A stretch of DNA of 64,000 bases from Candidatus Bathyarchaeota archaeon A05DMB-5 (GTDB lineage: Archaea > Thermoproteota > Bathyarchaeia > Bathyarchaeales > Bathycorpusculaceae): assembly GCA_019685655.1 (NCBI GenBank), contig JABFQP010000001.1:62001-126000 (forward strand), given 5' to 3'. Within the stretch, counting starts at the first letter, position 1, and the number at the start of each line of letters is the position of its first letter. The notes beneath the pieces were generated by a model that made no database searches, was not told the DNA's origin, and was given only the letters and a program-made list of their open reading frames with translations. Position numbers and translations under genes: made by a program. Positions 1 through 52,361 of this stretch are shown here, one piece after another.

Positions 1-1617
1 TTTTCTAAAAACTTCTCTAATGGCTTTCTCAGATTCGCCAACCCACTTTGAGAAAACCTCTGGACCCTTAATTGTTATGAAGTTGGCTTCGCTTTCGGTG
101 GCAACAGCCCTTGCCAGAAGCGTTTTTCCACAGCCTGGCGGTCCATAGAGAAGTATGCCTTTTGGTGGTTTGATACCGAGGCGGTTGAACATTTCAGGGT
201 TTTTCATAGGCCACTCCACTGCTTCTTTTAGTTCCTGTTTTACTTCTTCCAGTCCGCCTATGTCTTCCCAGTGGACGGTGGGCACTTCAATGTAGACTTC
301 ACGCATGGCTGTGGGCGTGACTTCCTTGTAAGCGTTCATGAAGTCTTCCATTTTAACTTCCATTTTCTCTAGGACGCTTGGCGGTATGCGTTCTTCTTCA
401 AGATTTATTTGCGGCAAGTATCTGCGGAGGGCTTTCATGGCTGTTTCGCGGCATAATGCTGCTAAGTCTGCGCCTGTGTAACCATGAGTCATTTCAGCCA
501 GTTTTTTAAGGTCAACATCTTCCGCCAATGGCATTCCACGCGTATGAATCTGCAAGATTTCATGTCTTCCCTGCTTGTCCGGTACGCCTATTTCGATTTC
601 TCTGTCGAATCTGCCAGGTCTGCGCAGTGCCGGGTCAAGTGCGCCGGGTCTGTTGGTGGCGCCTATGACGATGACGTTTCCTCTTCCAGACAAGCCATCC
701 ATTAAAGCGAGAAGCTGCGCAACCACTCGCCTTTCAACTTCGCCGGTAACTTCTTCACGTTTTGGCGCGATTGCGTCAAGCTCGTCGATGAATATTATGC
801 TTGGTGCGTTCTGTTGGGCTTGCTGGAAAATTTCTCTAAGCCGCGCTTCTGACTCGCCGTAGAACTTGCTCATTATTTCTGGTCCATTTATTGAGAAGAA
901 GTTTGCTTCTGATTCGTTCGCAACAGCTCTGGCTAATAGCGTTTTGCCACAGCCTGGTGGACCGTGAAGCAGAACTCCTTTTGGCGGTTCTATTCCGAGT
1001 CTTTGGAAAAGCTCCGGATGCCTCAAGGGAAGCTCAACCATTTCTCTTACTCTTTGTATTTCTTCGTGTAAACCGCCGATGTCTTCGTATGTTGTTCGCG
1101 GTAATCCTTTTCCTTCCGGTGCTGGCTCGTTTAGAATGGTGAGTTTTGTTTCTGATGTGACTTTCACTATGCCGTGCGGGCGGGTTTTTGTTACTGTGAA
1201 GGGAATGGCGTGTCCAAGCATCATCACAAGCGTTGTGTCGCCTTCGACAAGCGTTCTTTCCATGAGGCGATTTTTCACGAAATTGGTGAAATCTTCATCA
1301 ACGTTTAGGCGCATGTCCACCGGCGCCAAAGTTATGCTTAACGCAGTTTTGACTTTGGCGGGGCGCACAACGACGTATTCATTTATGGCTACGCCGGCGT
1401 TTTTGCGTGTGAAACCGTCTATTCTTATCATGTCTCTGTTTTGGTCTTCGCTGTAGGCTGGCCAAGCTATGGCGGAAGTTGTTCTTTTTCCAGCTATTTC
1501 TATAACGTCGCCTGCTGTTATTCCTAATTTCTGCATTGTTTTTTGGTCTACGCGGGCTATGCCTCTTCCAACGTCTCTTTGTCTTGCGTCTCCGACGCGT
1601 AGTTGTACTTCACTCAA
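1..1617 (-). CDS. cdc48: Cdc48/VCP-family AAA+ ATPase (C-terminus cut by window edge)
   Basis: Two-ring AAA+ unfoldase that extracts and unfolds proteins, probably feeding the 20S proteasome. The visible 539 residues hold the N-terminal double-psi barrel domain (about 1-190), the complete D1 ATPase with Walker A GPPGCGKT, Walker [13 protein letters not shown] and the arginine-finger region RRPGRFD, then the start of D2 with a second GPPGCGKT. About 200 C-terminal residues lie beyond base 1. I chose TTG at 1617 because AAGGA sits just upstream and the protein then begins [10 protein letters not shown], as expected for the family. A TATA box lies at 1674-1686. Identification is by motifs and is secure. 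Confidence 0.96.
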
Positions 1618-49254: not shown

Positions 49255-49881
49255 CTATTTCCCGCCGAGGACTTTACGTTTCACTTTGCCTTTTGGTTTC
49301 TCTTCCTCAAAAATTATGGCTTGAAACTTGTAAATTTTGGTGCCGTCCAAAAGCCAATAATCTGGAGACAAACCCGCTTTCATGCAACATTGACATAGAA
49401 ATTCCTCCGCATCCCATTCCCATTCAACTGGCACTTGAGGCAGAAGTAGCCCTTTAAACATGCCTCTTTCAACAATTAGTCCATCTTCGCCTATTTTGAT
49501 TTTGTTTGGGTATTCGTTTGGTTTTTTAACTTCTATTATCTGCGGAGGTGTGAGCACGCTTACTTCAAAGACTACCTTGTCAAGTTCATCCAATGACAGC
49601 GGATAAAAGCGTGGGTCTTGAGTTGCTGAGCTTATTGCAGACTCTATAACTGCTTGAACTAATGGCGTGGTTGGATATGGATAGCCAATGCAGCCCCTTA
49701 GTTCTTTTTCGCCACTTTCTATGCTGTTGATTGTTACGAAAACTCCGCAAGGCTGCATTAGTTTATCATCAATGTTTTTGGGAGGGCTAATTTGCCTTCT
49801 GCTCTTTAGGTATTCTTCGACGGCTTTCCGTGCAAGCGTAACGAGGAATTCTCCCTCGTCTAAACTAAGCTCAAATGGCAA
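49255..49881 (-). CDS. AMMECR1-domain protein
   Basis: 208 residues with the invariant LRGCIGYPYP motif, preceded by GVFVTINSIE and followed by ISSATQDPRFYPLSLDEL and EVSVLTPPQII; VEWEWDAEEFLCQCCMKAGL is near the C-terminus. A universally conserved family of unresolved function, found in archaea near MEMO and radical SAM genes; neither is adjacent here. Confidence 0.93.
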   Translation of the reverse strand: MPFELSLDEGEFLVTLARKAVEEYLKSRRQISPPKNIDDKLMQPCGVFVTINSIESGEKELRGCIGYPYPTTPLVQAVIESAISSATQDPRFYPLSLDELDKVVFEVSVLTPPQIIEVKKPNEYPNKIKIGEDGLIVERGMFKGLLLPQVPVEWEWDAEEFLCQCCMKAGLSPDYWLLDGTKIYKFQAIIFEEEKPKGKVKRKVLGGK

Positions 49882-49962: not shown

Positions 49963-50583
49963 TTAGAACTTTATTGATTCTTCTTGTATTCCATCTTTGG
50001 TTATTAGCAGGAAATCTATTCCGTCGCCGCTCATGATGTCTCTGCTTATGGCGGATTTTATCGCTCTTACGACCAAATCTTTGGCTTCTTCCATAGTCAT
50101 GCCTTCTTTGTATGATTCTTCGAGTACTCCCATGGCGATTTCGGTGCCAGAACCTACTACAGCATACTTGTCAGGTATTACTGAACCTAGAATGTCAAGC
50201 ACGTAAAGCGATGCCCCTTCATCATCTAGTCCACCAACAATTGTTTGTGTAATCAACGGAGCTAAACGGCGGGCGAAAAGCAGGTTTGACATTAGTTTGG
50301 CTGCTGCTCTCACAGAAATTGGTCTGCCAGCGTCAAGATTGAAAAGCTGCGCGTATGCTTCTACTTCTCTTACGAGAATTTGCATGTCTGAAACGAGCCC
50401 AGCGCATGCTGCGCCTATTTGGTCAGTTAATTTGAAAACTTTTTTGCCGCCTTTGCTGACGACAAGATAACCGTAAGAAACACGTTTTTCAGAAGCTAAA
50501 ATAACGCCGTCCTGGCATACTACGCCGACGGTTGTGGCGCCTGGAATCCAAAGATATTGGGATTGCTGTGATTCTCTTTCCAT
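49963..50583 (-). CDS. psmB: 20S proteasome beta subunit lacking the Thr1 nucleophile
   Basis: 206 residues of the beta fold. Other active-site positions fit: Glu in the D17 position (ASEKRVSYG), the K33 lysine in KGGKKVF, SGTEI and SRDIMSGDGID. But the processing site reads PGATTVGVV, so Ala16 occupies the place of the catalytic Thr1 that normally reads G-TTTVG. This subunit should neither mature nor cleave peptide bonds, and presumably mixes with an active beta subunit encoded elsewhere. Inactive beta paralogues are known in Sulfolobus-type archaea. ATG start with GGTGAG upstream. Confidence 0.93.
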   Translation of the reverse strand: MERESQQSQYLWIPGATTVGVVCQDGVILASEKRVSYGYLVVSKGGKKVFKLTDQIGAACAGLVSDMQILVREVEAYAQLFNLDAGRPISVRAAAKLMSNLLFARRLAPLITQTIVGGLDDEGASLYVLDILGSVIPDKYAVVGSGTEIAMGVLEESYKEGMTMEEAKDLVVRAIKSAISRDIMSGDGIDFLLITKDGIQEESIKF

Positions 50584-50743: not shown

Positions 50744-51064
50744 CTATTTTGGTGTGAGAGCTCGGCTGATTCTGGTTTTTAGGTCTGTGTATCTTTGTAA
50801 AATTTCGTTTTTTAGTCGAGAGATTTCTTGGCTAAGCCGTTGTTTAGATTCAGGAGCAAGGTCTGTTGATTTTACTATGTCTTTTTCTATTTTTTCCAAG
50901 TCATGATCTGCGGAACGTTTCGTTTCTTCTGTCTTTTTGAGTGCATCCAGTTTGGTTTTTTCCATTTTTGCAAACTCATTGTTGATGTCCTTTTCAGTTT
51001 TGAGAAGCTTTTCCCGTATTTTGCCAAGTTTCTCCATTAATTCACGTTCAGATGGCCCGCCCAT
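50744..51064 (-). CDS. Uncharacterised coiled-coil protein
   Basis: 106 residues, almost all charged helix with heptad spacing (KLGKIREKLLKTEKDINNEF, KSTDLAPESKQRLSQEISRL). No recognisable family. It has a good minus-strand TATA (AAACTATAAGGC, near 51093) and reads away from ogt. Confidence 0.65.
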   Translation of the reverse strand: MGGPSERELMEKLGKIREKLLKTEKDINNEFAKMEKTKLDALKKTEETKRSADHDLEKIEKDIVKSTDLAPESKQRLSQEISRLKNEILQRYTDLKTRISRALTPK

Positions 51065-51805: not shown

Positions 51806-51836
51806 GTATTAATGTGTACGTGGTGGAATGAGCTTT

Positions 51837-52361
51837 ATGATGAAGCGTGGGCTTTATGTCGGGCGTTTTCAGCCTTTTCATCTTGGTCATTTAGGAGCCA
51901 TAAGAGACATTTTGGAAGAAGTTGAAGAACTAGTAGTCGTTATTGGAAGCGCACAATACAGCCACAACCTTAACAATCCATTTACCGCTGGCGAAAGACT
52001 GACTATGATTCGTAGGGCTCTGGAAGAAGCAAAAATTGACTGTTCGCGAGTTTGGATTGTGCCAGTGCCAGACGTGCACTTGCATATGATGTGGGTTTCG
52101 GCAGTAGAAGGCTACACGCCAAAATTTGATGTCGTCTATTCCAACGAATCCTTGACAAAGCGGCTTTTTATGGAAGCTGGCTACAACGTTAAGCCAATCC
52201 GTTTTCATGAAAGAAAGCTCTATTCGTCAACTGAAGTAAGGGAAAGGATGCTTAGAGACGAGAGTTGGGAGAAGCTTGTTCCAAGAAGTGTGGCGGCTTT
52301 CATAAGAGAGATAGATGGCATTAACAGACTTAGGGATTTGACTAAGAGCGACAAAGTATGA
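51837..52361 (+). CDS. nadM: Nicotinamide-nucleotide adenylyltransferase
   Basis: 174 residues, archaeal NadM type. GLYVGRFQPFHLGHLGAI carries the HxGH nucleotidyl transfer motif, NNPFTAGERLTMI binds nicotinate nucleotide and LYSSTEVRERML is the ISST-like motif. ATG 51837 has GGTGG ten bases upstream; ATG 51828 is too close to it. The end overlaps the convergent SAM hydrolase gene by 20 bases. Confidence 0.95.
   Translation: MMKRGLYVGRFQPFHLGHLGAIRDILEEVEELVVVIGSAQYSHNLNNPFTAGERLTMIRRALEEAKIDCSRVWIVPVPDVHLHMMWVSAVEGYTPKFDVVYSNESLTKRLFMEAGYNVKPIRFHERKLYSSTEVRERMLRDESWEKLVPRSVAAFIREIDGINRLRDLTKSDKV

Follow-up and report, generated by a model that had tools for sequence, protein, structure and literature searches.

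The gene at positions 49963 to 50583 on the minus strand of the window (the entire stretch of 64,000 nucleotides that was analysed) is, with good confidence, a structural beta subunit without catalytic activity, belonging to an archaeal 20S proteasome with two kinds of beta, and an orthologue of Saci0662 from Sulfolobus acidocaldarius. This reading is preferred because the alanine found in place of the catalytic threonine (Thr1) is conserved, because subunits of this kind fall into a single clade, and because Saci0662, the protein with the closest solved structure, is inert yet needed for alpha binding. The inert class of beta subunits is already known from Sulfolobus and is not peculiar to the source genome. 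What is new is its single origin across the phylum, and the proposed assignment of the ‘equivalent threonine’ of Saci0662 to Thr2.

The gene is a paralogue of psmB that encodes a protein of 206 amino acids, and it is supported by its profile match, its open reading frame (ORF) and an AlphaFold model. The first-pass annotation gave the correct coordinates for this ORF, leaving out the strand, and its remark that the gene is free of other lesions is borne out by a full-length reading frame with no stop codon and no frameshift. The protein passes the threshold of the archaeal beta subunit profile TIGR03634 (234.8 bits against a cut-off of 224), and it also matches PF00227. Its model (pLDDT 85.6) has the N-terminal nucleophile hydrolase fold, and the top fold matches are proteasome subunits without exception.

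Codon 16 (GCC, positions 50536 to 50538 on the minus strand) specifies the alanine of a PG-A-T-T-V-G sequence, wherein the V-G pair aligns with that of active subunits. Strand S1 of the AlphaFold model runs from residue 17 on, and thus Ala16 occupies the structural position of Thr1. Active beta subunits carry Thr1 directly after a glycine at position -1, and the window gene has Ala16 there instead. The replacement of Thr1 by Ala16 that had been proposed is therefore confirmed by the V-G register, the alignments and the model. The alanine is preceded by an N-terminal extension of 15 residues (MERESQQSQYLWIPG, positions 50539 to 50583 on the minus strand), which is mostly disordered in the model, with residues 1 to 13 of low confidence, and which is predicted not to be autoprocessed.

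Most of the remaining active site is intact. Glu17, Arg19 and Lys33 are as in active subunits, and the GSG serine, the RD aspartate and the SG serine are all retained. The Lys33 equivalent is encoded by codon 48 (positions 50440 to 50442 on the minus strand), and its alignment column is invariant across the inert class. These residues agree with the original suggestion that only the nucleophile has been lost, but that suggestion goes too far in one respect, since the Ser131-like residue located two positions after the GSG serine is alanine or threonine across the inert class in the alignment. A purely structural role gives no account of the invariance of Lys33, Arg19 and Asp166 in subunits that have no nucleophile. 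The fold may need these residues, and such a structural need is the simplest answer.

There are exactly three genes matching PF00227 in the source genome, whose assembly (1.51 Mb in 11 contigs) is 98.6% complete. They encode an alpha subunit (L003), a beta subunit that carries Thr1 (L001, GTTTIGVVCKDGVILASDTR) and the Ala1 beta subunit of the window. Thus, the second beta gene that the first-pass annotation proposed to look for is present, and its Thr1 is intact when it is aligned with the window gene. The Thr1 beta gene adjoins the gene for the ribonuclease aCPSF1/FttA, which is the usual location of psmB in euryarchaea. With the Thr1 beta gene in the customary place, the Ala1 gene is probably a moved, derived copy.

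The same division between two beta subunits was found in genomes spread over the phylum, where the closest paralogue of the window gene was taken as the inert representative. There are 82 such inert rows, in which position 1 is alanine in 75, glycine in six (the residue given by the V-G register, for which a one-residue deletion is an equivalent reading), serine in one and threonine in none. By comparison, position 1 is threonine in all 25 other beta subunits of the sample. Of the 35 families sampled, 34 have a beta subunit without Thr1, and the exception is a family represented by one genome whose assembly lacks an alpha gene as well. In each of six near-complete genomes, drawn from four families, there is one beta with Thr1 and one without. 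The inert gene is missing from assemblies G015 and G026 and the Thr1 beta from G023, G024 and G053; most, though not all, of the genomes missing one partner are fragmented metagenome assemblies.

A tree was built from 102 rows from the phylum after removal of the position-1 column. A single branch splits the inert subunits from the Thr1 betas (99/99, one change, 200/200 bootstrap trees), and the window gene falls in the inert clade, apart from the Thr1 betas. Because one branch and one change suffice in a tree that is blind to position 1, the loss of Thr1 is most simply explained as one ancient event that became near-universal in the phylum. The rarity implied by the first-pass annotation finds no support in these 82 rows, in the tree or in the 80 Bathyarchaeota loci described below. 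A built-in non-catalytic beta subunit would thus be the rule across a large archaeal phylum and not a Sulfolobus oddity. TIGR03634 and PF00227 label the inert betas as peptidases, a label that should not apply. No statement of a phylum-wide loss of Thr1, or of the register point, was found in a literature search that covered few subscription papers. An earlier statement that crenarchaeal betas lack Thr1 may exist in the paper behind structure 6z46 or in subscription reviews. Papers on Sulfolobus cell division and on Saccharolobus Urm1 contain no information on beta subunits.

The closest solved structure is 6z46, both by profile (293 bits, with the next at 207) and by fold, and its title names the S. 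acidocaldarius 20S proteasome (Saci0613/Saci0662). In reconstitution experiments, Saci0662 binds the alpha ring to form a 28-mer that has no activity, Saci0909 on its own fails to bind alpha, and the addition of Saci0909, at a lower ratio, yields an active particle (PMC4569737). The authors of this 2015 paper described Saci0662 as seemingly catalytically inert and took its corresponding threonine to be catalytic (PMC4569737). A protein from a Sulfolobus-type genome (L084) that is identical to chain H of 6z46 at 187 of 189 residues reads EELP-A-TAIG, and the chain in 6z46 starts one residue before TAIG. We infer that the 198 residues of this chain consist of a methionine, the 189 residues and an 8-residue tag. 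When the L084 sequence is set against this chain start, the presumed catalytic threonine of Saci0662 most likely corresponds to Thr2, with alanine at position 1. An alanine at that position would provide a plain sequence reason for the inertness of a subunit in which a catalytic threonine had been assumed.

Saci0662 and the window beta resemble each other in belonging to the inert clade (via L084), in being the best match by structure and sequence, and in having one alpha and one Thr1 beta alongside, the latter being L220 in the genome that carries L084. However, they are about 46-47% identical, the 15-residue extension ending in PG is a feature of the window gene, and Saci0662 has been tested biochemically whereas the window beta is known from sequence. 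By tree placement and best match, the window gene is an orthologue of Saci0662.

A mechanism can be proposed from these parallels. Because Thr1 is absent, neither autolysis nor peptidase activity is expected. The chemistry, together with yeast beta subunits that carry a T1A mutation, suggests that the Ala1 beta would neither cleave substrates nor remove its own N-terminal extension. In the yeast mutants the geometry of the site is kept, the propeptide is not self-removed and remnants of it are retained (PMC4792962). By analogy, a natural Ala1 subunit is expected to retain its extension without autolysis. The Sulfolobus reconstitution further suggests that the Ala1 beta probably packs against the alpha ring and probably accounts for some or most of the seven subunits in each beta ring. 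The places left over would go to the Thr1 beta, whose gene lies elsewhere in the genome and which would be the source of all peptidase activity. The first-pass annotation had envisaged an unprocessed subunit that could restrict or tune the chamber when mixed with an active beta. Such mixing fits the S. acidocaldarius reconstitution (PMC4569737), and the mechanism appears largely right. The nearest experiment, that on Saci0662, points to a scaffold role toward the alpha ring first, from which a dilution of active sites would follow.

One competing explanation is that the alanine reflects a mutation, an assembly error or a decaying pseudogene, in which case the codon would be ACC or the gene would be on its way out. 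A single changed residue in an otherwise intact gene, from a genome in 11 contigs, is what such an error might look like. However, there are 80 Bathyarchaeota loci in a genome scan (nearly all carrying that name), and position 1 is alanine in every one of these independent contigs, encoded by GCA in 33, GCC in 27, GCG in 11 and GCT in nine. PG precedes this position in 79 of the 80 loci. Several pairwise dN/dS values are saturated, and silent and replacement differences were therefore counted instead: relative to a copy from the same genus, the window gene has 32 silent codon differences and one replacement. The omega value of the Ala1 beta is about 0.04, and that of the Thr1 beta is similar. 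These codon comparisons indicate strong purifying selection on the gene. The occurrence of alanine in 80 of 80 loci via four GCN codons, along with the scarcity of replacements, argues that selection keeps the amino acid and not the codon. With the substitution being class-wide in the phylum as well, both the error and the pseudogene readings are rejected as vanishingly improbable. No viral copies of the gene were found in the viral contig set.

Another possibility is that the Ala1 beta is active by means of a shifted nucleophile, wherein Thr17 (Thr2) is exposed at the N-terminus. This would accord with the invariance of Thr2 in 82 of 82 inert rows, the retention of Lys33, Asp166 and Ser169 in the inert class, and the treatment of the corresponding threonine of Saci0662 as catalytic in the 2015 paper (PMC4569737). 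However, Thr2 is equally invariant in Thr1 betas and therefore is probably structural in both types, and in the model it already begins strand S1. Moreover, a Saci0662 construct whose start we place at that same threonine was inert with alpha (PMC4569737). The shared invariance and the inert construct make a Thr2 nucleophile very unlikely. A third reading holds that the inert beta is mainly a regulator, such that the ratio of inert to Thr1 subunits sets activity and barrels built only from inert subunits are idle or sequestering in the cell. The complete, inactive 28-mer that the Sulfolobus orthologue forms with alpha, and the lower ratio at which the active beta joins, are consistent with this idea, but recombinant ratios may differ from those in cells, and we consider a mainly regulatory role rather unlikely.

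Several observations concern the genes around the inert psmB and other proteasome components. Directly downstream lies an AMMECR1-domain gene (positions 49255 to 49881 on the minus strand), and this positional linkage is kept across Bathyarchaeota: in 71 of 80 loci the gene lies 3′ of the inert psmB and shares its strand, most of the other loci reaching a contig edge. There is no such arrangement in any of 20 loci from other families. On the other side, psmB adjoins an apparently genus-specific ORF of 106 amino acids with coiled-coil-like character (50744-51064, minus strand), for which there is no Pfam match and no tblastn match in 80 related loci. A nicotinamide-nucleotide adenylyltransferase-like gene (51828-52361, plus strand) stays no more than about 5 kb away from the inert psmB in roughly half of the sampled families of the phylum. 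No PAN ATPase scores above the TIGR01242 cut-off in the source genome or in any of 31 genomes from the order to which it belongs. The nearest is a two-domain Cdc48-like protein (L251; window positions 1-1617, minus strand, continuing in G000:C1), and its C-terminus, KPATPVA, is without an HbYX tail. Several Bathyarchaeota families have a divergent Thr1 beta (L040-L043) in which two residues are inserted near residue 24, either beside the usual Thr1 beta or in its place, and extra divergent alpha-like subunits (L051, L052) occur in two families of the order. The metagenome-assembled genome DRTY-6_2_bin_115 has two different Ala1 beta genes (L120, L123) on two contigs, which could reflect either duplication or a mixed bin.

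As a probable structural beta subunit, the window protein can be compared with several known systems. It shares with the active archaeal betas of Thermoplasma acidophilum (1pma), Archaeoglobus (1j2q) and M. jannaschii (3h4p) a common fold, Glu/Asp17, Arg19, Lys33, the GSG serine, Asp166 and Ser169, and differs from them in the absence of Thr1. The yeast T1A subunits have the same residue change, but they are laboratory mutants and not natural subunits. In the eukaryotic beta ring, three of the seven subunits are active and four are inactive. The inactive ones are like the proposed archaeal inert beta in that they lack the nucleophile and share a ring with active subunits. Nevertheless, a profile comparison, made without a tree, reveals no special kinship between the two groups; among eukaryotic subunits, the inert profile matches the catalytic beta5 best, with the inactive PSMB1 just behind. 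It is an improbable idea that one duplication and one loss of Thr1, close to the base of the phylum, established throughout this lineage a mixed ring that was the forerunner of the eukaryotic arrangement, as opposed to a parallel invention. The first half of this idea, a single duplication with loss of Thr1 near the root that gave rise to a mixed ring, is supported here. Whether the mixed rings of archaea and eukaryotes had one origin or separate origins is now a testable question.
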